Source: Thermodesulfobacterium sp. TA1 (GTDB lineage: Bacteria > Desulfobacterota > Thermodesulfobacteria > Thermodesulfobacteriales > Thermodesulfobacteriaceae). From it: a stretch of DNA of 64,000 nucleotides. Below the pieces are notes generated by a model. The model worked only from the letters and a program-made list of their open reading frames with translations, made no database searches and was not told where the DNA came from. Both the position numbers and the translations under genes were made by a program. The stretch's first letter is position 1, and every line of letters starts with the position of its first letter. Of the stretch, positions 1 through 12,401 are shown in pieces. Location of the stretch: positions 1,550,001 to 1,614,000 of the forward strand of contig NZ_CP043908.1 of assembly GCF_008630935.1 (NCBI RefSeq), given 5' to 3'.

Positions 1-258
1 CCATGGATAAAGAAAAACCAACTCTACGTCAAATACCACAAAAAGAATGGCTAACACATAATATCCTATAAAAAACCTTTCTCTTACTTCTCCTGAAGGA
101 AGGTTTCCTGATTCGTAGGCCATAAGCTTTGTAGGAGTCTTTTTCTTGGGTGCAAGCAACCGATTGATAAAGATGGCAGCAAAGGCAAAAACAGTAGCTA
201 AGATTAACATCAAAAACACAGGAAGATATTTTAGCGGTAGGTAGGTCCCAGGGGTCAC
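1..258 (-). CDS. nuoA: NADH-quinone oxidoreductase subunit A, C-terminus cut by window edge
   Basis: Membrane subunit of respiratory complex I (NuoA/ND3). I translated the minus strand by hand: it opens with a GTG whose bases overlap the TGA stop of nuoI (GTGA), has a hydrophobic first helix, then the family motifs MAYESGN and, near the window edge, VVFDVELVFLYPW. These Glu/Asp-rich loop and helix signatures are typical of NuoA. About 86 residues are visible and the last helix lies beyond base 1. It is the last visible gene of the operon, which is an unusual place because nuoA normally comes first. Confidence 0.88.
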   Translation of the reverse strand, partial: MTPGTYLPLKYLPVFLMLILATVFAFAAIFINRLLAPKKKTPTKLMAYESGNLPSGEVRERFFIGYYVLAILFVVFDVELVFLYPW

Positions 259-821
259 TGCTTAGCCTCCATTTTAACATTTATAGGCTTAGGGAACCTT
301 TTTTCAAAGGGTAGCCGCCTTCTCTCAATCCCTTTTAAATACCAAAATTTGTTTAGATAAGAGTCTCCTTTGTATCCAGCTATGAATTCATCCCAGTTTT
401 GAAGTAGTTTATCCTTGGTAAAGTAGTTTTCTTCTTTATCGTAAACTGCATACTCGTAATATTCTGTAAGCACGATGGCGTTTACAGGGCAGACCTCTAC
501 ACAATAAGCACAATAAATACATCGAAAGGCCTCTATTTCGTATTTAGTTAGAACCCTTGCACCTGAGGTTGGGTCTTCGGTATACTCCACACGAATACAT
601 TGCGAAGGGCAAACCCTAACACACCTTAAGCAAGCTACACATCTTTCCTTGCCTGTTTCTGGGTCTCTGACTAAAGCGTGTCTCCCTCGAAAACCTTCTG
701 TTATTTCTCTTTTTTGTTTAGGGTATCTGATGGTAACCGGATGGGTAAAAATGGTTTTTAAGGTAATTAAAAGCCCTTTTATCAGGTCTATTAAAAGAAG
801 TTTTTTAATCAATTGTCTCAT
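255..821 (-). CDS. nuoI: NADH-quinone oxidoreductase subunit I (2x[4Fe-4S])
   Basis: Peripheral-arm ferredoxin subunit of complex I that carries clusters N6a and N6b and passes electrons towards NuoB. The 188-residue product has two CxxCxxCxxxCP motifs, at about residues 61-71 and 101-111, and an amphipathic N-terminal helix expected to lie on the membrane. Length is slightly above the usual 160-180, from a longer C-terminus. Its ATG overlaps the nuoD stop by 4 nt and its stop overlaps nuoA, so the four nuo genes are translationally coupled. Confidence 0.95.
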   Translation of the reverse strand: MRQLIKKLLLIDLIKGLLITLKTIFTHPVTIRYPKQKREITEGFRGRHALVRDPETGKERCVACLRCVRVCPSQCIRVEYTEDPTSGARVLTKYEIEAFRCIYCAYCVEVCPVNAIVLTEYYEYAVYDKEENYFTKDKLLQNWDEFIAGYKGDSYLNKFWYLKGIERRRLPFEKRFPKPINVKMEAKQ

Positions 822-2023
822 TTATCCGCCTCTCCCATCACGATGTCAAGGGTCCCGATGATGGCTACTACGTCAGCCAAAAATTGCCCTTCTGACATTT
901 TGGGAATAGCTGCAATGTGTATAAAAGAAGGAACTCTAATCCTTACCCGATAAGGTCTACCTGTACCGTCGCTAATAATATAAAATCCCAGCTCACCTTT
1001 AGCACCCTCCACCGCTGAATAAACCTCTCCTTGAGGTAACAAAAGTTCTTTTTCTTTTAAAAATGAAATAAAACTACCGGTTAACCACCCTTCTGGATGA
1101 AGCCTCTTTTTACCAAAAGGGAGAAGGTCTAAATCTAAGGCCTCTTCGGCAAGTATGCTTCCCTCTGGCATTTTTTGAATACATTGTTTCACTATTCTCG
1201 CAGACTGTCTCATCTCTTGAATACGGCATAGATAGCGGTCATAGGTATCTCCATGCCTTCCTAAAGGAACTTCAAACTCTACCTCGCTATAAGCGTCATA
1301 AGGAAAATGTTTTCTTACATCGTAGTTTATTCCTGACCCCCTAAGGCTTGGGCCTGTAAGTCCATAGGCCAAGGCATCTTCAGGGGTTATTACCCCCACC
1401 CCTCTGGTTCGGGCTATCCAAATCCTATTTTCTGTAAGCAATCCCTCGTATTCATTAACCTTATCTAAAAACTCATCGATAAACCTGTCTATTTTTTCTA
1501 AGGTTTTTTCTTCTACGTCTACCCTTACCCCACCTATCCTTGGATAACTAAAAGTAAGCCTGGCACCACAAATTTCTTCTAAAAACCAAAGGATTTGTTC
1601 TCTCTCTCGAAAACAGTAAAGGAAGACCGTCATCGCTCCTATATCAAGAGCATGGGTGGCTAACCAGAGAAGATGGTTGCTTATCCTTGACAATTCAGCT
1701 ACCATGGTGCGGATAAATTTAGCCCTTGGAGGAGGTTCTATCCCAAGGAGTCTTTCTACCGCCAAACAATAACCTATGTTGTTTATCATACTAGCTATAT
1801 AATCTAATCTATCGGTCAAAGGGACAACCTGAGGATAGGTCTTGGTCTCAGCCAGCTTTTCTATGCCTCGATGAAGATAACCCACTTCAGGCCTACAACG
1901 ATAAACCCTTTCACCCTCAAGCTCTAAATAAAGCTTTAAAACTCCATGGGTAGCAGGATGATGAGGACCCATCTGCAGAACAAACTTAGAGGGTTCTATC
2001 TGTTCTAAAGTGTACCCTTTCAT
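818..2023 (-). CDS. nuoD: NADH-quinone oxidoreductase subunit D (49 kDa)
   Basis: Quinone-site subunit of complex I, homologous to the large subunit of NiFe hydrogenases. The 401-residue protein begins with the signature GPHHPATHG at residues 19-27, which lines the quinone pocket, and continues with the conserved [12 protein letters not shown] and DRLDYIA segments. There are no CxxC nickel ligands at either end, so it is a true NuoD and not a membrane-bound hydrogenase subunit. It is not fused to NuoC, and no nuoC lies between it and nuoB, where that gene normally sits. ATGA overlaps join it to both neighbours. Confidence 0.95.
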
Positions 2024-2535
2024 CCTTTATAACCTTTTAAAATTTTTTCTTGTAATTTGATGATACCTTGGAAAAAGGCTTCTGGTCGTGGAGGGCAACC
2101 AGGAATATAAACATCTACCGGAAGGATCTGGTCTACCCCTTGAAGGACGCTATAAGTTTGGAAAATCCCTCCGGTTGAGGCACAGCTTCCGACAGCAATC
2201 ACAAACTTAGGTTCTGCCATTTGGTCATAAATTCTTCTTACGATAGGAGCCATTTTATAAGTAACCGTCCCAGCTACAATCATAAGGTCTGCCTGTCTGG
2301 GAGAAGCCCTAAAAAGCACCCCCAACCTATCAAAATCATAATGGCTGGCACCGGCTGCCATCATCTCTATAGCACAACAGGCAAGACCAAAGGTAAGGGG
2401 CCAGAGAGAATTAGCCCGGCCCCAATTTATAAGTTTATCAAGGGTGGTGATAAGAACGCTATCTGTGCCTTTAACCAGTTTTACCCCTTCGGCTATCTCA
2501 ACCGTGTGGTCCTCACGATTAGTATAGGTTGACAT
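2020..2535 (-). CDS. nuoB: NADH-quinone oxidoreductase subunit B (cluster N2)
   Basis: Complex I subunit that binds cluster N2, the last iron-sulfur centre before quinone. The four N2 ligands are visible: adjacent Cys53-Cys54 in GLACCAIEM, Cys118 in GSCAS and Cys147 in PGCPPRPE. Length 171 is normal. Its start lies inside the end of the upstream ferredoxin gene (17 nt overlap) and its stop overlaps nuoD by 4 nt. This tight coupling to a PsrB/HybA-type ferredoxin is the main reason to think the two modules form one complex. Confidence 0.95.
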
Positions 2536-3025
2536 AGGCTTCCTTTACAAACTTTTCTCTTTTAAGGGTTGAAGCTTCCTGGGCGGAAACCCATTTTAAG
2601 GCATGGGTGGTGCATTTAGTCACACAGGCTGGTAATAGCCCTTGGTCAATCCTGTCCTTACAGTAATCACACTTCACTACCTTTCCGGTTTCTGGGTCAA
2701 ACTGAGGGATACCCCAAGGACAGGCAGTAATACAGTTTTTACAACCTACGCAGAGACTTGGTTCTACAAAAACTATACCGTCTTTAGGCCTCTTTTGCAT
2801 AGCCCCTGTAGGACAAGCCTTTACACACCAAGGGTCTTCACAATGAAAACAAGGCATAAAAATAAACCTCTGAACTACCTGTTCGTTTAAAGACTTAATG
2901 TCTGTAGGGATAATCCTGCAAAGCCTTGGGCCTGGTCCAAGCCCTTTGTTGGTTTTACAATGGACTTCACAAGCAAAACAACCGATACATCTGTTATGGT
3001 CTTGATATATATAGTAAAGGCTCAT
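2519..3025 (-). CDS. Four-cluster [4Fe-4S] ferredoxin, PsrB/PhsB/DmsB type
   Basis: Electron-transfer subunit of the CISM (DMSO reductase) family. The 168 residues carry four cysteine groups: [11 protein letters not shown] (from Cys13), [26 protein letters not shown], and [20 protein letters not shown], enough for four [4Fe-4S] clusters. There is no Tat or Sec signal and no membrane helix, so it should stay in the cytoplasm, like the molybdopterin protein encoded just upstream (16 nt gap). The 3' end overlaps nuoB by 17 nt. The likely job is to wire the molybdenum subunit to the Nuo peripheral arm; that is inference from gene order. Confidence 0.9.
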
Positions 3026-3041
3026 AAGCTCCCTCCTTTTT

Positions 3042-5129
3042 TTAAACTTTTTTAACCTTTACAAAGGTTTCAAAAAGAACACCTGTATGACTTCCTGCCC
3101 CAAACTTATCAAAAGCTCCTTTGAGCAATCTTCCCTCGTTAAGGCCTTTACCATAGCTTCTGGTAAGCCAAGGAATGTCGTTCTGATAACCCCTAATCAT
3201 AAACACCGCCTCAGGATGGATGTGAGGGGTTACCTTAGCTTTGATTTTTCCTGTAAAATCTCCTGAAGAGACCTCTACTAAGTCCCCGTCCTTTATACCT
3301 AATTTTTCAGCCACTTCGGTATTTATCCAAAGCTCGTTTTCTGGTTTAATCTCGTTTAACAATGGATTGTTTTGGGTCCTTACATGGGTATGCATCCCCG
3401 CCCTTCCAAAAATAAGACGAAACTCGCCTTCTTCAATTTTTGGTTTTTCTGGGGTCTTATATTGATAAAAATTAGGGACCTCTCTTTCTTGCATTTTAGA
3501 AGACACTATTTCAATCTTGCCTGAAGGGGTCTTAAACTTTAACTGGTCCTTAGAATAAAGTATCTGCTCCTTACAAAGAGGCACAAACCCTTTTGCGTCA
3601 AAATCCTCTATTCTTACTCCTGTTCCTTCTAATTGATAATTCCAGATGTCTTCTATGGTCTCATAAGGAACATACTTTTCTAAACCAAGTTTTTTACATA
3701 ACTGGGTAAAAATCCACCATCTGGGCTTGGTGTCAAAAACTGGATCTATGGCCTTTCTCCTTACGATAAAAGCAGGTTTAGCCCCTCTTTGTAAGCCTAT
3801 GATATCATCCCTTTCAAGATAGGTTGATTCTGGAAGGATTACGTCTGCAAACCAACCGGTAGTTCCATAGTCTACAGGGATATGAACTAAGAGTTCTAAA
3901 TTTTGGACGATTTCTTTAATATCTTTTAAAGGCATTCCAGCAAAGGGATCATACCTGTAAACAAAAAGGGCTTTTATAGGATAAGGCTCTCCAGTCTTGA
4001 TAGCCTTAAAGAGGTGTAAAATATGTCCTGCACCGTCATATAAAAAGCCCTTCCCAGATTCAGCTTCTATTCGCTTGTCCTGAGGAGCAGGGATGGGGTC
4101 TAAAAGACTTTTTAGAGGTTGAGCCCCTACTTCCTTTGGAGATTTAGCTAAAATTAAACCACCCTTCTGGTCTAAGTTCCCAAGTAAAAAGTTAAGTATC
4201 CAAACCGCCCTGGCAAAGTAAAACGAATCCATATACCTTGCACCAAACCAATAAGGATATACTATAGCCCTTGGTTTTGCCTCCCCAAGCTCTCTTGCCA
4301 GCTTTATAATCTGATATTCAGGCACTCCAGACTCTGCTTCAGCCCATTTAGGGCTATATAGCTTGATAAAATCTTCCAATTCTGTAAGCCCCAACATGTG
4401 CTTAGACACAAAATCTCTGTCATACAGGTCTTCTTTTAATATCTGATGAATAAGGGCTAACACCACAGCGTAGTCTGTACCTGGCCTTATCTTTAAATAC
4501 CTTGTAGCCTTGGTAGCGGTAACGTTTACCCTGGGGTCAAAATAAGTAAGTTTAGCGCCTTTTTCTAAGGCTTTAAGCACGTTGTTAGCCTCTTTTACGA
4601 CTACCGCATCAAAAAAAGCCCTACCAAAGGAAACTATATGTTTGGCATTGGCAAAATCGTAACTAATCTGATTCCTTTGGATACCTATTAAACTCTGTAA
4701 GGCAAGGTCTACGTTTTTTCTGCAAAGGTCATCATGGTTAAAATAGTTAGGAGATCCTATGGCCCTAATAAAAACCCTTTGCATCTCTCCAAAAAGTCCG
4801 CCTCCTCTGTCTAAAAGAGCTACAGATTTAGCCCCATATTTACCGATGATTTCAGACAATCGGTTAGATATATAACTTAAAGCTTCATCCCAAGAAACTC
4901 TTTTCCACTCCCCAGACCCTCTTTCTCCTGTTCTAACCATCGGGCCTTGAGGTCGTTCAAAATCATACACATGAACCAAACCAGCAGCCCCTCTAGCACA
5001 AAGAGCTCCTTCAATCCCGGCAGCATAAGGATTACCCTCTATCCACGTAACCCTTCCGTCGGTTACCTCAACCCTTATAGGACACCGAGCAGAACACATA
5101 CCACATACCGAAAAAACCTGTTTCTTCAT
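3042..5129 (-). CDS. Cytoplasmic molybdopterin oxidoreductase, PsrA/PhsA-like
   Basis: DMSO-reductase-family enzyme with a bis-molybdopterin cofactor. At the N-terminus Cys9, Cys12, Cys16 and Cys44 form the proximal [4Fe-4S] site. Cys136 (NHDDLCRKN) is at the Mo-ligand position and is followed by Arg, not the His seen after Sec/Cys in formate dehydrogenases, so a polysulfide/thiosulfate-reductase-like or unknown substrate is more likely. The C-terminal molydop-binding domain is complete (695 aa). PsrA and PhsA normally have a Tat signal; this protein starts directly at the cluster motif and has none. It leads an operon with a ferredoxin and nuoBDIA, with a GGAGGGG ribosome site and a sigma-54-type promoter upstream. 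Substrate and reaction direction cannot be read from sequence. Confidence 0.85.
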   Translation of the reverse strand: MKKQVFSVCGMCSARCPIRVEVTDGRVTWIEGNPYAAGIEGALCARGAAGLVHVYDFERPQGPMVRTGERGSGEWKRVSWDEALSYISNRLSEIIGKYGAKSVALLDRGGGLFGEMQRVFIRAIGSPNYFNHDDLCRKNVDLALQSLIGIQRNQISYDFANAKHIVSFGRAFFDAVVVKEANNVLKALEKGAKLTYFDPRVNVTATKATRYLKIRPGTDYAVVLALIHQILKEDLYDRDFVSKHMLGLTELEDFIKLYSPKWAEAESGVPEYQIIKLARELGEAKPRAIVYPYWFGARYMDSFYFARAVWILNFLLGNLDQKGGLILAKSPKEVGAQPLKSLLDPIPAPQDKRIEAESGKGFLYDGAGHILHLFKAIKTGEPYPIKALFVYRYDPFAGMPLKDIKEIVQNLELLVHIPVDYGTTGWFADVILPESTYLERDDIIGLQRGAKPAFIVRRKAIDPVFDTKPRWWIFTQLCKKLGLEKYVPYETIEDIWNYQLEGTGVRIEDFDAKGFVPLCKEQILYSKDQLKFKTPSGKIEIVSSKMQEREVPNFYQYKTPEKPKIEEGEFRLIFGRAGMHTHVRTQNNPLLNEIKPENELWINTEVAEKLGIKDGDLVEVSSGDFTGKIKAKVTPHIHPEAVFMIRGYQNDIPWLTRSYGKGLNEGRLLKGAFDKFGAGSHTGVLFETFVKVKKV

Positions 5130-5285: not shown

Positions 5286-6476
5286 TTATTCTGAAAGGAT
5301 CGGAAGTCTTCTAAGCATAAACCTTGAAGAAAGAACAATCATGGTTGCCATCGAAAGAGAAAGGGCTACTTCCATCCAAGAAGGATAATATTTTTGTTGC
5401 CACGGAATATACCAATTATAGGCTATAAGGCAAACCACCACACGATTAAAAATTATCCCTAAAGCTACCCAAAAAGCAGAAATCCTTACCCAAAAGGCTT
5501 TTTCCGCTTTTATCGCCCACGAAAGCAAAACCAGGGGACATATCACAAAAATTAAATGTTCTAAAACGAAGAGGATACCATAAGAAGAAAAAAAGTAACC
5601 TAATTTTTCCTGATGGACCAGGTCCAAAACCTTCAGGAATAAATACAAGCTTAAAACCACGGCAAGAGCTTTTCCAAGGCCTAAGGTTTTTCTATCAAAC
5701 ATTTCTGGGTTAAACTCTTTAAGGTTTTGTTTAAAAAAACGATGGGTGATGGTGCTTTCTATCACCACGATCGAAACTCCTGCCGCTATCGCAGAAATAA
5801 GGAAAAACAACGGTAAAAGAGGTGAGTACCAAAGAGGATGCACCTTAGTTGGTGCTATCAAAAACAGCGCACCCAAGGCTGATTGATGTCCACCGGCTAT
5901 TATTACCCCAAAAGCCGTAGCCCAAACCCCTAAAGAAGCAAAGAAATTTTTAGCCTTTTCTTTACCTAACCACTCAAAAAAAACCGGAAACCATTCTACT
6001 AAACATATCATAATATAAAGGAAAAAGTGCCAACCAACCAAGAACAGCACCGATTCTAAACCCCAAGACCATATTATAGGATAAAAAACCCTATAATATC
6101 TTCCAAGGTCAAAAAGAAGGGCTATGACCGCAAAAACATAACCTACAAGGCTTGAAAGAATGGCTGGTTTGGCAAAACTTTTATACTCTTTCATCCCAAA
6201 AAGATAAACCGCGGTTCCTACCGTTAAACCCGGAGCAGCAAGGGCAATACCTGCTAAGATATCAAAGGCAATCCAAAGCCCCCAAGGATAATCGTTGTTT
6301 AAATTGGTAGCAGGACCGAGCCCAAAAATCAGCCTATAGGCTATGGCATAAAATCCGAAAAGTAAAATAATGCCTGCTATCAGATTCCAAGGGGTAAAAA
6401 GCCCGACGATATAGGTTTTAAAATCAGGAGCCAAAAGTAGCTTTTGTTTAAAACCCTTTGCCTCAACCTTTTCCAT
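5286..6476 (-). CDS. hmcC: HmcC-like NrfD-family quinone-interacting membrane subunit
   Basis: Polytopic integral membrane protein of the NrfD/PsrC family (396 aa, about ten hydrophobic segments). This family binds menaquinone at the periplasmic face and exchanges electrons with a partner four-cluster ferredoxin. Visible features include NLNNDYPWGLWIAFDILAG near the N-terminus, typical of the HmcC/DsrP/HybB branch. It follows the Tat ferredoxin gene by 2 nt and closes the Hmc operon. DsrP is the main alternative name, but the 16-heme cytochrome in the operon favours HmcC. Confidence 0.88.
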   Translation of the reverse strand: MEKVEAKGFKQKLLLAPDFKTYIVGLFTPWNLIAGIILLFGFYAIAYRLIFGLGPATNLNNDYPWGLWIAFDILAGIALAAPGLTVGTAVYLFGMKEYKSFAKPAILSSLVGYVFAVIALLFDLGRYYRVFYPIIWSWGLESVLFLVGWHFFLYIMICLVEWFPVFFEWLGKEKAKNFFASLGVWATAFGVIIAGGHQSALGALFLIAPTKVHPLWYSPLLPLFFLISAIAAGVSIVVIESTITHRFFKQNLKEFNPEMFDRKTLGLGKALAVVLSLYLFLKVLDLVHQEKLGYFFSSYGILFVLEHLIFVICPLVLLSWAIKAEKAFWVRISAFWVALGIIFNRVVVCLIAYNWYIPWQQKYYPSWMEVALSLSMATMIVLSSRFMLRRLPILSE

Positions 6477-6478
6477 CT

Positions 6479-7441
6479 TTACTCTCCGTCCTTCCCCTTC
6501 TTAAAAACCATCTTATAGGCTAAATAAGCCAACACAGGAGAGGCTAAAATTTCTAAAACTTTTACGGCAAAAAGATAGTTTCTGGTATAAACCGCCGGGC
6601 TTTGTTTATAGCCGGTTGGCAACCCGATAGCCTCAAAAGGCACAGGAGAAAGGTATAACCAACTGGTTCCCCCAAAATCATCCTCTCCATAAACTTTAGG
6701 GAAATACCTATCAGGATTATCTGCTATCAATTTATGCGCTATTTTTAACAACTCCTCCCTTTTACCAAACTTAAGGGCATCTGCAGAACAGACCGCTACA
6801 CAAGCAGGGACCTTACCCTCTACCACCCTATCAAAGCACATCGTGCACTTAGTAACTTGAGGGGTTATAGGGTCATAGTATTCATAGGCTGGTATATCAA
6901 AAGGACAGGCAATCATACAATATCTACAACCTACGCATACTTCAGGATTATAAAGCACCGCCCCTTCCTCTGTTTTTGTAAAAGCCCCCACAAAGCAAGA
7001 AGAAGCACAGGCAGGATCTAAACAGTGCATACATTGTCTTTTCACATAAACTACCTTTCCGTTCACCTCAAACCTGTTTACTACCGTAAAAGCCCCTGCT
7101 GAAGGCCTTCTAATCTTTTCGAAAACCGAATTTTTCTCAAACCTTGATTTTTCAAAATTTTCTATAGGTTGGTTAGGATTTTTATTCCATTCATTACAAG
7201 CCCATTCACATCTACGGCAACCTATACATTTAGTAACATCAAAAAGTACTGCATAGCCGCCTTCTTGAGGCTTTTGTTTAGTGTCCTTTCTTTTGCGATA
7301 AATTTCCCAGTTCTTGGTATTAGCCTTGGTATGGGTAGCTTTAAAACCTTTTTCCTCTTCCTCATTAAGCTTAAGGTTAAGATTTATCGTCAAAAATCCT
7401 GGTAAACCTACAATACCTTTTAAAAAATCCCTTCTATTCAT
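6479..7441 (-). CDS. hmcB: HmcB-like Tat-exported four-cluster ferredoxin
   Basis: Periplasmic iron-sulfur subunit linking the multiheme cytochrome to the NrfD-like membrane protein. The N-terminus MNRRDFLKGIVGL is a twin-arginine signal. Four cysteine groups follow: CIGCRRCEWAC, CMHCLDPACASSC, CVGCRYCMIACP and CTMCFDRVVEGKVPACVAVC. A C-terminal hydrophobic helix (about residues 290-312) should anchor it to the membrane, as in HmcB and DsrO. Length 320. It is separated by 2 nt from hmcC and 9 nt from the small hmcD-like gene. Confidence 0.88.
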   Translation of the reverse strand: MNRRDFLKGIVGLPGFLTINLNLKLNEEEEKGFKATHTKANTKNWEIYRKRKDTKQKPQEGGYAVLFDVTKCIGCRRCEWACNEWNKNPNQPIENFEKSRFEKNSVFEKIRRPSAGAFTVVNRFEVNGKVVYVKRQCMHCLDPACASSCFVGAFTKTEEGAVLYNPEVCVGCRYCMIACPFDIPAYEYYDPITPQVTKCTMCFDRVVEGKVPACVAVCSADALKFGKREELLKIAHKLIADNPDRYFPKVYGEDDFGGTSWLYLSPVPFEAIGLPTGYKQSPAVYTRNYLFAVKVLEILASPVLAYLAYKMVFKKGKDGE

Positions 7442-7450
7442 AGCCTTTTC

Positions 7451-7567
7451 CTAAAATTTTTTCTTAGGTTTAAACCATAAAAAAAGTAATATAAAAACAA
7501 AAAAAGCAGCTCCAGAAATTACGTATTCTGCTCCATGATAACTAAAAAGTTTTTCCCAAATATACAT
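7451..7567 (-). CDS. hmcD: HmcD-like small membrane protein (38 aa)
   Basis: Translated by hand from the minus strand: ATG at 7567, TAG at 7451, 38 residues. The N-terminus (MYIWEKLFSYHGAEYV) is followed by one hydrophobic helix (ISGAAFFVFILLFLWF) and a basic tail KPKKKF. It occupies the gap between hmcA and hmcB, 21 nt and 9 nt from its neighbours. Desulfovibrio Hmc operons also encode a tiny single-helix HmcD, so position, size and topology agree. Sequence identity at this length is not decisive. Confidence 0.65.
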   Translation of the reverse strand: MYIWEKLFSYHGAEYVISGAAFFVFILLFLWFKPKKKF

Positions 7568-7588
7568 TTTTTACCCCTTAACACTTCC

Positions 7589-9199
7589 TTAAAACCTAAT
7601 TATACTCCTCTCTTTCTTCGATGTATGACAACTATCGCAGGTCATCGCTTTTTCTATCCTTAGATATTCATGGCACTTTATACACTGCCCGTGGTAAGCC
7701 GCTTGTAGTCTTGGTCTTTCAGGATGAAGAGGGTTAAACTCTATTCCGTGGCAGTTAACACATTTTAGCTCTTGCCCTTTTGTCTTTTCATCTACCCTTG
7801 CCTTATGATGACACCCTTTACAAAGAGTTTTCTCTTCCTGATGAAAATAAACAGAGAGCCTGTTATCTAAGGTCTTATTACTCAAGCTTTCTATGATTTT
7901 TTTATGGGGCAGGATAGCCTTTTCAAACTCTTTTGATAAAACCTCTATCTCTATCTTAGGTTCTATTTTACCAGAATAAGGCTTTAAGGTTTTAAAAATA
8001 GCCTTTTGTTTGCCGGTATGACATTTAAAACAAGAATCCTTAGAGGCTATCTCTGTGCGAGAAGTATCTTTTTTATCCAAATGATGACAGGCTAAACATT
8101 CTGCCCTTGCCTTTATTTCCTTTTGATGGCATCCCTGGCAGGTCCTTTCTGAATAAAGAGAATGAAAGGCGGTAACGGCGTTGACAAAATTACCTTTAGG
8201 AATACCTTCTAAAGTGTGACAATTACGGCAGGCTTCAAGCCTTTCATGATGACAATCTCGACATTTTTTGGTTGTAAACTGATGGACCTTATGGTTAAAA
8301 ACAACCCCTTGCATCTTAGAACCTTTAGAAAACTCCATAAAATAAAAATCTTTTTGTCCTCTATCTGGCCTTGGGGCTTGTGCAAGGGCTTCTAAGGTTT
8401 TAGTCTCACCTTTATGACATTCACTACAAGTGATCGGTCCAGCCTTTTTATCCTCCTTTTTAAGATCAACATGACAGTTTAAACACAACCCATGGTAGGC
8501 CTGAGAAAGGCTCAAGCCTTTTTCTTGAGCTACCTTTAAAATCTGGGTTAACTCAGGACCTCTTTTTCTACTAAAGTCGTGGCAGTAATAGCAAGACTCT
8601 TCTTTACCTTTAACATACTTTAAAGTCCTTGTCTTATCAGCCTCTTCTAAATCATAGGTATGATGACATTTTTCACACTTTTGGTCTAACTCTTTTACAT
8701 GATTTGCATGATAGACCCAATCAAAATCAAACATAGGATAGGTTATATCTTTTTTAAAATATCGATTAACATGACAGTCTCCGCAAGAAAGCCTAACCGG
8801 TCCGTAAGGTTTACCTTCAGACTTCTTTTGCTGATGACATTGGATGCAGGCTTGATGGTAAAGGTCCTTTAATTTTTCTGGGTCTTTAAGGGATAAAAAC
8901 TCTTTCGGAAAGACAAAACGCAAAGTGCCGTTTTCTCCTGAAGGATGACAAACATTACAACCTTCCTTTTCAAGGGATTTTACATGTTTTCCATGGTGAA
9001 ACAAAACCGGTGCATACTCTAAATCACCAAAAATTTCCGAATGTTTAATAAGAAGAACATTGCCCTTTACTTCTGAGGAATCCAAAGGATGTTTGTGCGA
9101 TTTTAACGTTTCGGTTAAGCCTAAAGGATTAAAAAACCAGCCTAAACCCAACATAAACAAACCTGCTATCAGACCTACCAAACTTTTGCTTCCTTTCAT
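7589..9199 (-). CDS. hmcA: HmcA-like 16-heme high-molecular-weight cytochrome c
   Basis: Periplasmic cytochrome that collects electrons from soluble hydrogenases and formate dehydrogenases through cytochrome c3 and hands them to the membrane Hmc subunits. I count sixteen CxxCH motifs across the 536 residues (first GCNVCHPS, last TCDSCHTS), the same number and nearly the same length as Desulfovibrio HmcA. Several motifs are CxxCHH, as in cytochrome c3 modules. The N-terminus (residues 1-28) is a hydrophobic signal or anchor without a clear AxA cleavage site. It starts 1 nt after the HdrD-like gene, a different place from Desulfovibrio, where hmcA is first. Confidence 0.93.
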   Translation of the reverse strand: MKGSKSLVGLIAGLFMLGLGWFFNPLGLTETLKSHKHPLDSSEVKGNVLLIKHSEIFGDLEYAPVLFHHGKHVKSLEKEGCNVCHPSGENGTLRFVFPKEFLSLKDPEKLKDLYHQACIQCHQQKKSEGKPYGPVRLSCGDCHVNRYFKKDITYPMFDFDWVYHANHVKELDQKCEKCHHTYDLEEADKTRTLKYVKGKEESCYYCHDFSRKRGPELTQILKVAQEKGLSLSQAYHGLCLNCHVDLKKEDKKAGPITCSECHKGETKTLEALAQAPRPDRGQKDFYFMEFSKGSKMQGVVFNHKVHQFTTKKCRDCHHERLEACRNCHTLEGIPKGNFVNAVTAFHSLYSERTCQGCHQKEIKARAECLACHHLDKKDTSRTEIASKDSCFKCHTGKQKAIFKTLKPYSGKIEPKIEIEVLSKEFEKAILPHKKIIESLSNKTLDNRLSVYFHQEEKTLCKGCHHKARVDEKTKGQELKCVNCHGIEFNPLHPERPRLQAAYHGQCIKCHEYLRIEKAMTCDSCHTSKKERSIIRF

Positions 9200-9200
9200 T

Positions 9201-10529
9201 TTAAGGCCTTAACCTCTCAGGGATTTCCATATGTTCTGCTATTAGGTCAGCCAAAAATTTTACATGAGCATCAACTTTATAATGTTCTAGCAAGTCCTCT
9301 ATCCCTTTATGACAGGTATGACAGGGAGCTATCACCAATTTGGCTCCTGTTTCTTTTATCTGTTCTACTTTTACTTTACCCCCTTCTATTCTTGCCATTT
9401 TCCACGGAGGACCTGCATCTACCATACCTCCCCCTGAGCTACAGCAATAGTTATATTCTTGATTAGGGGTCATGTCTACGAAGTCCTCGCAAAGCTCTTT
9501 TACGATAAACCTGAGCTTTTCTCCTAACCCTCTATATCTTACTATATTGCAGGGATCCTGTAAGGTAGCCTTTTCTTTAACTTTATGAGCAATCTTTATT
9601 CTTCCTTGACTTAAGATTTCATAAAAAAATTCTACCGCATGGAGAAAAGGAATAGGGGGTTCTTTCCAGCCTAAGAGTCTAGCCGATTCATAAAGAGCTG
9701 CCCGGTAAGCATGCCCACACTCGGTTATTAAAATCCTTTTTACTCTAAGTTTAGAGGCTATCTCATAATGTCTTTTGGTTATTAAAGTCATCGTCTCAAA
9801 ATCATGCATATAAAGAGATTTGTTGGTATAGTCCCAACCATCGGTATCAGGTAAGGTGAAATCAACTCCAGAGGCAAGCATTATCTTAAGCATGTTTGAA
9901 AGAAGTGGGGTCATGTACTTAGCCTCAAGCCCATGGATAAGCAACAAAATATCTGCGTCTTTTTTACCTAAAGGAATCCTGGCATTTTTTATCTCATATC
10001 TAAGCTCATCCTCTATCCATTGTATCGTGTCTATCCATTCATCTTGCTTAAACCAAAGCATGTTATAAGAAGCCATATGGCTATAAACCTGGTCTTGGAT
10101 AAACTGAGGGGCTACCCCTAAAACCCCGCAAAGCCTCCTAACCAAAGAAATCAGATAGGCAATATCAATCCCAAAAGGACAAAACTGGGTACAACGACGA
10201 CAAAGGTTACACTCGGTAAAAGCAATCCTGGCATACCTTTTAAGGTCTTGTTTAGCGATGTTACCCTTCTTTGCTATCAGGTCCCCTAAGGTAAGTTTTA
10301 CCTTGGCTGCTGGGGCATAGCTTGGGTCTCTGTCATGGGATAAATAATGATGGCAAGACTCAGAGCAAAGCCCGCAATGCATGCAGGTTTCTAAAAAGGT
10401 CTTGAACCTAACGGTAGCTTCTTGGTTTAAAACCCTTTCTATCGCCCTTCTAATCTTTTGTTGGTCCAAACGCTCTATCGCTTTATCTATCCCTATGTCT
10501 GATACTGGTTTTCTTACAAACCCTTCCAT
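9201..10529 (-). CDS. hmcF: HmcF/TmcB-like HdrD-family iron-sulfur protein
   Basis: Cytoplasmic electron-transfer subunit related to heterodisulfide reductase HdrD and DsrK (442 aa). Two classical [4Fe-4S] motifs lie in the N-terminal part (CMHCGLCSESC near residue 49 and CNLCRRCTQFCP near residue 108). The C-terminal CCG domain has DPCNIVRYRG, YNYCCSSGGG and APCHTCHKG, the ligand set of the non-cubane [4Fe-4S] cluster used by HdrD for disulfide chemistry. It lies 10 nt after the cytochrome b gene and 1 nt before hmcA. It could equally be named TmcB; the reaction partner (for example a DsrC trisulfide) is not shown here. Confidence 0.88.
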   Translation of the reverse strand: MEGFVRKPVSDIGIDKAIERLDQQKIRRAIERVLNQEATVRFKTFLETCMHCGLCSESCHHYLSHDRDPSYAPAAKVKLTLGDLIAKKGNIAKQDLKRYARIAFTECNLCRRCTQFCPFGIDIAYLISLVRRLCGVLGVAPQFIQDQVYSHMASYNMLWFKQDEWIDTIQWIEDELRYEIKNARIPLGKKDADILLLIHGLEAKYMTPLLSNMLKIMLASGVDFTLPDTDGWDYTNKSLYMHDFETMTLITKRHYEIASKLRVKRILITECGHAYRAALYESARLLGWKEPPIPFLHAVEFFYEILSQGRIKIAHKVKEKATLQDPCNIVRYRGLGEKLRFIVKELCEDFVDMTPNQEYNYCCSSGGGMVDAGPPWKMARIEGGKVKVEQIKETGAKLVIAPCHTCHKGIEDLLEHYKVDAHVKFLADLIAEHMEIPERLRP

Positions 10530-10539
10530 AACCTCTTCC

Positions 10540-11196
10540 TTAATAATCCTTAGATCGCCTTACCGCTCCAAACTCTGAGGCAGTATGCGCCCTTATTAGC
10601 CAAAAATAAAAGATATGTGAAAGCTTAGTAAACGGAATTAAAACTAACATTATTTCTCCTAATAAAATGTGTATACCTGATATCACCTGATAGTTAAACA
10701 AAATCTGATATCTAGCTAAAAATCCGGTTAAAAACACTAAAATCACTAAAATCAAAAAAACATAGTCTGTAAAAGTGCTTAAATACTTAGCATCCCTTAC
10801 CAAAAGACGCCTTGCTAACAAGATTAACCCGCAGATAATAGTAAGGCCTGTTAAAAAGTCTGAAACCAGATTAGGTAAGGCCCACCAACTAATCCCCCAA
10901 GATTCTTTCCAAAGTTCGATATGCCCTAAGAAAAAAATAGGTGTTAGTAAAAGGCCTACATGGAAAAAATAACTTATAAGGGTAAAAAGAGGTCTTTGCC
11001 TCATGCTATAGCTACCTAAAGGTAAAAGCCAGAATAAATAGGACCTAAGGGTATACTTTAGACTAAAATATCCATAAAGCACTTTATCTTTTTGGGCTTT
11101 TTTAAAAAAAACATAAAGATTATAAACTGAACCTAACAGGAATATTAAAAAGGCTGCCCAAGCTAAAGGCCCTCTTACCAATTCAAAAAAAGACAT
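10540..11196 (-). CDS. hmcE: HmcE/TmcC-like NarI-family cytochrome b
   Basis: Integral membrane subunit of 218 residues with about five hydrophobic segments. His residues in helices (FFHVGLLLTPIFFLGH and SGIHILLGEIML, then KLSHIFYFW) are placed as expected for b-type heme ligands of NarI/DsrM-like proteins. It should pass electrons across the membrane between quinone or heme and the cytoplasmic HdrD-like partner encoded 10 nt downstream. It follows the TmcD-like gene by 2 nt. Confidence 0.85.
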   Translation of the reverse strand: MSFFELVRGPLAWAAFLIFLLGSVYNLYVFFKKAQKDKVLYGYFSLKYTLRSYLFWLLPLGSYSMRQRPLFTLISYFFHVGLLLTPIFFLGHIELWKESWGISWWALPNLVSDFLTGLTIICGLILLARRLLVRDAKYLSTFTDYVFLILVILVFLTGFLARYQILFNYQVISGIHILLGEIMLVLIPFTKLSHIFYFWLIRAHTASEFGAVRRSKDY

Positions 11197-11198
11197 CG

Positions 11199-12401
11199 TT
11201 AAACCTTCACTTCTTTAGTAAAATAAACCTTATTTTTTATCCCTCTTACTAAAACCTTATCTTCCTCTAAAAAAACAGGGTCCCAAAGATAACTATAAGG
11301 TCCTTCTAAAACTTTATTGTCTACTACTAAATAATAACTATTATCTTTTTCTGCCTTAACCGCAATCTTACTGCCCTGAGGATTGAAAACAGGGTCCCCT
11401 ATTTTTTCCCAAACTATATCCCAACACTCCCCATCTACTGCCAATCCCCATTTATCTTGGTCTCTTACCACGGCCGCTACCCTTTCTCCATCAGGACTAA
11501 AATGGGGGGCTAACACACATTGTCCAAAAGTTATCCTCCAGACTTTTTCGTCTACTGCTAAGGTCCATTTTCCTAACTCTAACGCTACCACCGCCGCTAC
11601 TCTCTTTTTCTCAGGAAAAACCTTAAGGTTCCACAACTGGGCAAAAGGTCTTCCCCAAAAGGAACTCCCATTACAGTATAGCTCCCATCCCTTATCGGTT
11701 TTTACCGGAGCTACCACCTGATTTTCATCTAAAAACCTTGGTTCCCAGACCTGATAAAAGGTCTTGTCCCATAAAAGCCCATCTACTGCTATGGTAAAAC
11801 TTCTATCAGGTAACCTTACAGCTACGGCTACTTTAGACTCTTGAGGACTAAAATCACAACCAAACACAGCTAAAAACCTTCTATCCCAGTACGAATCATT
11901 TATCGCCAAAGACCACATACCTTTGGCAAAATTAAAAATCTCTAAAACCGGATAGTTCTCTAACCTTACATAGGTGGCGACCTTACTTCCTGTTGGAGAA
12001 ACAAAAAGGTCCCTTGCATCATAAAAAGAGTTGCTCCAGGAAGTTCCGTCTACACAAACCGTATAACTTCCTTCTACTTTAACATTAGCCAGGACCTTTT
12101 TCCCAGAATTGTCTGATTTCAAATTCCAAAGGTATTCAAAAAATTCTTCCCACAAAACCCCATCTTTCCAGACCGTCCATAGACCGTCCTTTTGCACCGA
12201 GGCGATTAAACTTCCGTTAGAGACAAACTGGAGGAAATTAACCTTTTCAAAAGGCTCATCTATTATCTTTCCGTTAACCCAGATAAAACTTTGCCCTTCT
12301 TGGTCTTCAACCACCGTGGCTATGTTATCTCCTAAGGGACTAACCACTAACTCTGAAAAATTAACGTATTTCTCCAGCCAACGAAGGTCTACAGGGGTCA
12401 T
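11199..12401 (-). CDS. TmcD-like tryptophan-rich beta-propeller protein
   Basis: A 400-residue soluble protein built from repeating units of about 45-50 residues, each with an FSPxGxKVA-type strand and a VDGxxW turn followed by an F-rich segment (for example VDGTSWSNSF, VDGLLWDKTF, VDEKVWRITF, VDGECWDIVW). This WD40-like, tryptophan-rich pattern matches what is described for TmcD, the cytoplasmic fourth subunit of the Tmc complex. No signal peptide, cysteine cluster or heme motif. Position directly before the TmcC/HmcE and TmcB/HmcF homologues supports the call. Function is not established; a scaffold or docking role is inference. Confidence 0.72.
   Translation of the reverse strand: MTPVDLRWLEKYVNFSELVVSPLGDNIATVVEDQEGQSFIWVNGKIIDEPFEKVNFLQFVSNGSLIASVQKDGLWTVWKDGVLWEEFFEYLWNLKSDNSGKKVLANVKVEGSYTVCVDGTSWSNSFYDARDLFVSPTGSKVATYVRLENYPVLEIFNFAKGMWSLAINDSYWDRRFLAVFGCDFSPQESKVAVAVRLPDRSFTIAVDGLLWDKTFYQVWEPRFLDENQVVAPVKTDKGWELYCNGSSFWGRPFAQLWNLKVFPEKKRVAAVVALELGKWTLAVDEKVWRITFGQCVLAPHFSPDGERVAAVVRDQDKWGLAVDGECWDIVWEKIGDPVFNPQGSKIAVKAEKDNSYYLVVDNKVLEGPYSYLWDPVFLEEDKVLVRGIKNKVYFTKEVKV

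Follow-up and report, generated by a model that had tools for sequence, protein, structure and literature searches.

The window analysed here, a stretch of 64,000 nucleotides from Thermodesulfobacterium sp. TA1 (NZ_CP043908.1, positions 1,550,001 to 1,614,000), contains an operon that is, as judged by the families of its predicted products, the inner half of the Tmc redox complex joined to the outer half of the Hmc complex. Its seven genes lie close together on the minus strand, from 12401 to 5286 with gaps of 1-21 bases between open reading frame (ORF) coordinates, and encode homologues of TmcD, TmcC and TmcB followed by HmcA, HmcD, HmcB and HmcC; by curated profiles and trees, the usual internal order is kept within each set, and tmcB is separated from hmcA by a single base. 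Because the identical order recurs in 26 loci, the arrangement is beyond chance: it is real and conserved, a variant made up of known modules. With the join present both in relatives and across several further phyla, the hybrid gives the impression of a distinct type of complex, so far overlooked, for carrying electrons into sulfite reduction. The features of the operon, in order of transcription, are as follows.

11199..12401, minus strand: TmcD homologue, 400 amino acids, tryptophan-rich beta-propeller (NF045725)
10540..11196, minus strand: TmcC (called HmcE in the earlier sequence-only reading), 218 amino acids, cytochrome b of the NarI family with five transmembrane segments (NF045723)
9201..10529, minus strand: TmcB (called HmcF in that reading), 442 amino acids, two [4Fe-4S] clusters and a CCG domain (NF045724)
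9717..9719, minus strand: TGT codon of TmcB Cys271 (motif E-C-G-H), aligned with the in-frame UGA of nine relatives
7589..9199, minus strand: HmcA, 536 amino acids, 16 CxxCH motifs, N-terminal signal/anchor (NF045713)
7451..7567, minus strand: HmcD, 38 amino acids, one hydrophobic segment (ORF and conservation)
6479..7441, minus strand: HmcB, 320 amino acids, twin-arginine-like N-terminus, four [4Fe-4S] clusters, C-terminal transmembrane segment (NF045715)
5286..6476, minus strand: HmcC, 396 amino acids, NrfD-like quinone-interacting subunit with ten transmembrane segments (NF045714, PF03916)

Family membership of the seven products

Families were assigned with NCBIfam curated profiles, and several scores lie below the equivalog cut-offs; the proteins concerned are, on these scores, best described as divergent family members. 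TmcC exceeds its cut-off (247.8 bits against 240) and scores 173 bits as HmcE, a difference of 75; TmcB has NF045724 as its best family (597.6 bits, below the cut-off of 735) and leads by 243 bits over HmcF (354), with DsrK at 179. Because this front pair scores best as TmcC and TmcB, the gene order is read as Tmc D-C-B plus Hmc A-D-B-C. The sequence-only reading had counted all six Hmc subunits in a permuted order E-F-A-D-B-C, an account that has to be given up on both points, the E and F positions being filled by TmcC and TmcB in profiles and trees alike. The TmcB/HmcF tree has canonical HmcF in one clade (100/100), opposite a group made up of hybrids and Tmc (96/97); the TmcC/HmcE tree sets HmcE apart as a clade (100/100), and its hybrids fall in with Tmc. 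A placement of the E and F homologues inside the Hmc clade, which that reading had held to be fatal to its idea of a merged complex, was looked for in these trees and the opposite was seen, with the window's proteins on the Tmc side. The identification of the front pair as HmcE and HmcF is thus ruled out by the profile scores and both trees. Use of DsrM as an outgroup for the TmcC tree introduced a branch of length 5.6 that pulled the root into the window's own group, and this rooting was discarded.

The first product matches NF045725 (370 bits against an equivalog cut-off of 440, E 1e-110), contains 20 tryptophans, and aligns and trees with TmcD proteins. Its AlphaFold2 model (mean predicted local distance difference test score, pLDDT, 95.3) is all-beta with repeated strands, and its fold matches are propellers, which bears out the earlier recognition of a TmcD-like propeller protein at the head of the operon. 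No signal peptide was seen and no transmembrane segment was detected by hydropathy, so that a cytoplasmic location is predicted. In TmcC, which has five transmembrane segments, four histidines are invariant in all 50 aligned sequences, a number sufficient for two b-hemes. The model of TmcB (pLDDT 87.8) matches the folds of EtfD (template modelling score 0.67) and HdrB. Searches of the PDB by sequence with TmcB, HmcC or TmcD individually returned no close solved relative.

In the back module, HmcA passes the hexadecaheme cut-off of NF045713 (480.7 bits against 400), matches the solved Hmc structures 1gws and 2e84, and has 16 CxxCH motifs, all of them invariant across the alignment; this count and the extent of the gene block, 5286-12401, are exactly as the sequence-only reading gave them. 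HmcB (NF045715, 326 bits) and HmcC (NF045714, 384 bits; ten transmembrane segments; PF03916 match) each have these as best families at scores below the equivalog cut-offs, and 16 cysteines of HmcB are invariant in 42 of 42 sequences. Relatives carry counterparts of the 38-amino-acid ORF in the corresponding position, 42-97% identical; from its location, length and conservation it is taken to be a genuine HmcD-like gene. The central proposal of the sequence-only reading, a Tmc-type cytoplasmic front and an Hmc-type cytochrome in one operon, is therefore well supported, and extends to the cytochrome b and the CCG protein, which are also of the Tmc type.

Distribution of the hybrid and comparison with known systems

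The 26 loci with this architecture, including the window, comprise 20 that are complete and six that run into the end of a contig. Within the genus Thermodesulfobacterium, nine of 14 searched genomes have the hybrid, in ten loci, two of them in T. hydrogeniphilum; it was not found in any other genus of the order. Other Thermodesulfobacteriota have it at L107-L110, as a split pair in genome G108, and at L113 and L166. Further hybrid loci come from metagenome-assembled genomes (MAGs): L158 from Thermodesulfovibrio, L160-L162 and L180 under the label Nitrospira/Nitrospirota, L171 under Acidobacteria, L176 and L177 under Zixibacteria, and L175 from a MAG without classification. Each phylum named here is simply the label that the MAG carries. 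Among control loci, canonical Tmc operons of the same phylum have the order D-C-B-A with a tetraheme A (L118, L119, L122, L127, L132, L133, L134), and canonical Hmc operons the order A-B-C-E-F, or A-D-B-C-E-F with HmcD included (L118, L120, L121, L123-L126, L167, L169, L170, L172, L174); L118 has one of each near the other, as separate sets.

The hybrid shares homologues of TmcD, TmcC and TmcB, in the canonical D-C-B order, with Tmc (TmcABCD, Desulfovibrio vulgaris type), but has the 16-heme HmcA in place of the tetraheme TmcA and adds HmcD-HmcB-HmcC; the NrfD-like HmcC has no equivalent in canonical Tmc (PMC4215793). With Hmc (HmcABCDEF) it shares HmcA-D-B-C in canonical internal order, the HmcA being above the curated cut-off, whereas HmcE and HmcF are absent, the cytoplasmic side is of the Tmc type, TmcD is present, and the front lies upstream of HmcA rather than downstream of HmcC. 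By type of subunit (NarI-like cytochrome b, CCG protein, multiheme cytochrome c, periplasmic protein with four [4Fe-4S] clusters, NrfD-like protein) the layout equals that of DsrMKJOP, but the subunits score far better as Tmc and Hmc than as Dsr (DsrK 179, DsrO 80, DsrM 19 bits), and the 16-heme HmcA stands where DsrMKJOP has the triheme DsrJ; these low scores, together with a genuine DsrMKJOP elsewhere in the genome, rule out a DsrMKJOP paralogue. The nine-heme cytochrome complex Nhc likewise combines a cytochrome with an HmcB/HmcC-like back, but has nine hemes and no CCG/cytochrome b head.

At least one published relative is annotated only as Hmc: THER_1440-1444 of Thermodesulfovibrio N1, with a CCG ferredoxin (1444), a 16-heme cytochrome (1443), a ferredoxin (1441) and NrfD (1440), apparently has the same order when compared by its published description, which mentions neither TmcD nor a relation to Tmc (PMC5165239). 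Tmc operons without TmcA are reported in the syntrophic Seep-SRB1a and Seep-SRB1g (PMC10553843). Literature searches for Tmc and Hmc together returned no description of the hybrid. A related arrangement may already be shown in the comparative genomics of these complexes by Pereira et al. 2011.

Several further members of the complex family were encountered. The two hybrid operons of T. hydrogeniphilum (L100/L157, L101/L159) are diverged, and downstream of the second lies an additional TmcB-like gene, with two CxxCH motifs (L159:17280-18665). In genome G076, a cytochrome of 841 amino acids with 16 CxxCH motifs is encoded beside HmcB/HmcC-like and NarI-like proteins (L136). A third head on an Hmc-type back occurs at L114:1-10741, L115, L116, L117:40-8582 and L173, in the order CODH/ACS genes, AcsE-like protein, HmcE-like cytochrome b, short dicluster ferredoxin, MetV, MetF, HmcA with 16-17 hemes, HmcB and HmcC. 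This gene content points to a Wood-Ljungdahl operon with a methylene-tetrahydrofolate reductase that is membrane-bound and cytochrome/quinone-linked; no description of the MetVF-headed arrangement was found in a literature search.

Predicted selenocysteine in TmcB of relatives

Cys271 of TmcB is an invariant residue among 25 TmcB/HmcF proteins. The tmcB frame of nine hybrids (L099-L102, L104, L160-L162, L180) has a single break, always an in-frame TGA and never TAA or TAG, at the position corresponding to Cys271 of the window's protein (motif E-U/C-G-H). In each of these nine genes a hairpin starts approximately 17 bases 3' of the TGA; pairs in its stem are exchanged in L100 and L160. Such a hairpin, resembling a selenocysteine insertion sequence, is missing at the corresponding place in most tmcB genes of the cysteine type. 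A tRNA-Sec (approximately 79-86 bits) was found in 13 of the 14 genomes of the genus, including that of the window. A split tmcB as pseudogene or frameshift is rejected and recoding preferred, because every one of the nine breaks is a UGA at this one invariant cysteine with the hairpin behind it, and because a tRNA-Sec is encoded in those genomes of the genus that were checked for it. The nine relatives are thus predicted to carry a selenocysteine TmcB. A selenoproteome review includes, under the name "Fe-S oxidoreductase-like", a selenoprotein whose motif is UGH (PMC13188914), and so selenocysteine at such a site is already known; what is added here is its place in a hybrid of Tmc and Hmc. 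A [NiFe] hydrogenase-like frame with one in-frame TGA, possibly another selenoprotein, is present in the window's own genome (G000:C1:1336752-1336985).

Proposed electron route and alternatives

By profile search, the hybrid is the sole Tmc or Hmc found in the genome, with the only TmcD match and the only strong HmcA and HmcB matches. The genome also encodes the separate DsrMKJOP, one DsrC, a strong [NiFe] hydrogenase match and a c3-type cytochrome. Qrc is reported to be absent from Thermodesulfobacteriales (PMC10553843), which leaves room for another route from cytochrome to quinone; Tmc is needed for hydrogen oxidation in D. alaskensis and has been proposed to feed DsrC (PMC4215793), and a quinone cycle between DsrMK and DsrJOP is a published proposal (PMC8076601). 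From these proposals, the partners in the genome and the DsrMKJOP-like layout, we infer with moderate confidence that the operon encodes one transmembrane redox complex built of Tmc and Hmc parts, with flow from cytochrome c3 through menaquinone to DsrC; the seven products would then likely form a single, putative physical complex. TmcC would take the role of DsrM, TmcB of DsrK, HmcA of DsrJ, HmcB of DsrO and HmcC of DsrP, with TmcD and HmcD in addition. Electrons from a putative periplasmic hydrogenase would pass via cytochrome c3 to the 16-heme HmcA, and from there through the four clusters of HmcB to menaquinone at HmcC; the di-heme TmcC would re-oxidize menaquinol, or take electrons by a direct path through the membrane, and pass them to the cytoplasmic TmcB, which may reduce a disulfide or trisulfide of DsrC during sulfite reduction. 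Cys271 is predicted to form part of the active site of TmcB.

Several points weigh against this model. A scan of the operon for promoters and terminators gave no clear excess over shuffled sequences, and co-transcription of the two modules is presumed from the spacing of the genes. For L105, a grouping of TmcB with the relatives of its HmcA is rejected (approximately unbiased test, p-AU 1.4e-8), and for L160 and L162 the corresponding grouping of HmcB is rejected too (p-AU 3e-12), both groupings having been chosen after the trees were seen; fronts and backs have apparently been exchanged independently, and therefore tight assembly is not guaranteed. The hybrids are known from genes alone, DsrC as acceptor is a proposal even for canonical Tmc, and periplasmic export of the [NiFe] hydrogenase is assumed.

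The recombination of modules in the trees speaks for the main, though less probable, alternative, in which two complexes share an operon and are linked only by the quinone pool: HmcADBC as an Nhc-like cytochrome:menaquinone reductase and TmcDCB as a DsrMK-like menaquinol:DsrC reductase. The same kind of HmcA-B-C back does occur with other heads, namely HmcEF downstream (L118-L126) and MetVF (L114-L117, L173), and L135 has a nine-heme cytochrome-B-C set without E or F. However, distant lineages have retained the gene order, which equals that of DsrMKJOP, a set described as a single complex (PMC8076601), and the gap of one base between tmcB and hmcA also argues for a unit. Reverse flow in vivo, from reduced DsrC or menaquinol to periplasmic cytochromes for release of hydrogen or extracellular electrons, is improbable: all the cofactors are reversible in principle and HmcA would be a large periplasmic electron store, but the genome holds a full candidate set of partners for hydrogen oxidation coupled to sulfite reduction, and genetic results for Tmc point to inward flow (PMC4215793). 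That the operon is an ordinary Hmc with its E and F genes merely moved upstream is hardly credible. The naming of the Thermodesulfovibrio N1 locus as Hmc (PMC5165239) and the weaker matches to the HmcE and HmcF profiles speak for it; the bit-score leads of TmcB and TmcC, the separate HmcF and HmcE clades and the tmcD gene at the head of the operon speak against it.

Origin of the hybrid

A single clade of hybrid TmcB proteins is rejected (p-AU 0.009, L105 having been excluded after inspection of the tree and the tested group not fixed beforehand), and canonical Tmc falls among the hybrids. In the HmcA tree, the hybrids and the MetVF type lie on one side of a 99/97 branch and canonical HmcA on the other; in the HmcB tree, for which a single, very long branch of DsrO serves as root, hybrids stand on either side of a canonical HmcB clade (97/92). 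The TmcD tree separates hybrids from Tmc at 66/76 only and is uninformative on origin. Because the hybrid TmcB proteins are not one clade and include canonical Tmc among them, because hybrids span several labelled phyla, and because hybrids flank canonical HmcB in the DsrO-rooted tree, the hybrid may tentatively be regarded as the older form, although we would not give this even chances: canonical Tmc would have arisen by loss of HmcD-B-C and replacement of the 16-heme by the tetraheme cytochrome, and canonical Hmc by loss of TmcD and gain or rearrangement of divergent E-F. Of the "ancestral or merged state" suggested from the sequence, the ancestral part, or repeated assembly, fits the TmcB result better than a single recent merger does. 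A distinct HmcB-HmcC lineage (100/100) unites L137 (G182), which has a cytochrome of 460 amino acids with four CxxCH motifs, with the hybrids L160, L162 and L166, pointing to exchange of back modules.

Adjacent genes and significance

Immediately downstream on the minus strand (255-5129) are genes for a PhsA-like molybdopterin enzyme and its ferredoxin, then genes resembling nuoB, nuoD and nuoI. The set is like complex I with a molybdoenzyme at its head; the Nuo-like names come from reading of the translations and not from profiles.

For the passage of electrons from the periplasm to DsrC and sulfite reduction in sulfate reducers, Tmc, Hmc and DsrMKJOP usually count as three distinct solutions, and a conserved set that pairs a Tmc front with an Hmc back implies that the three are combinations of modules. 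Annotation by single subunits will go on mislabelling the hybrid as Hmc. The natural exchange of cysteine and selenocysteine in TmcB points to a testable candidate active-site residue, and where Qrc is reported to be lacking, the hybrid is a single candidate for the reduction of both quinone and DsrC.

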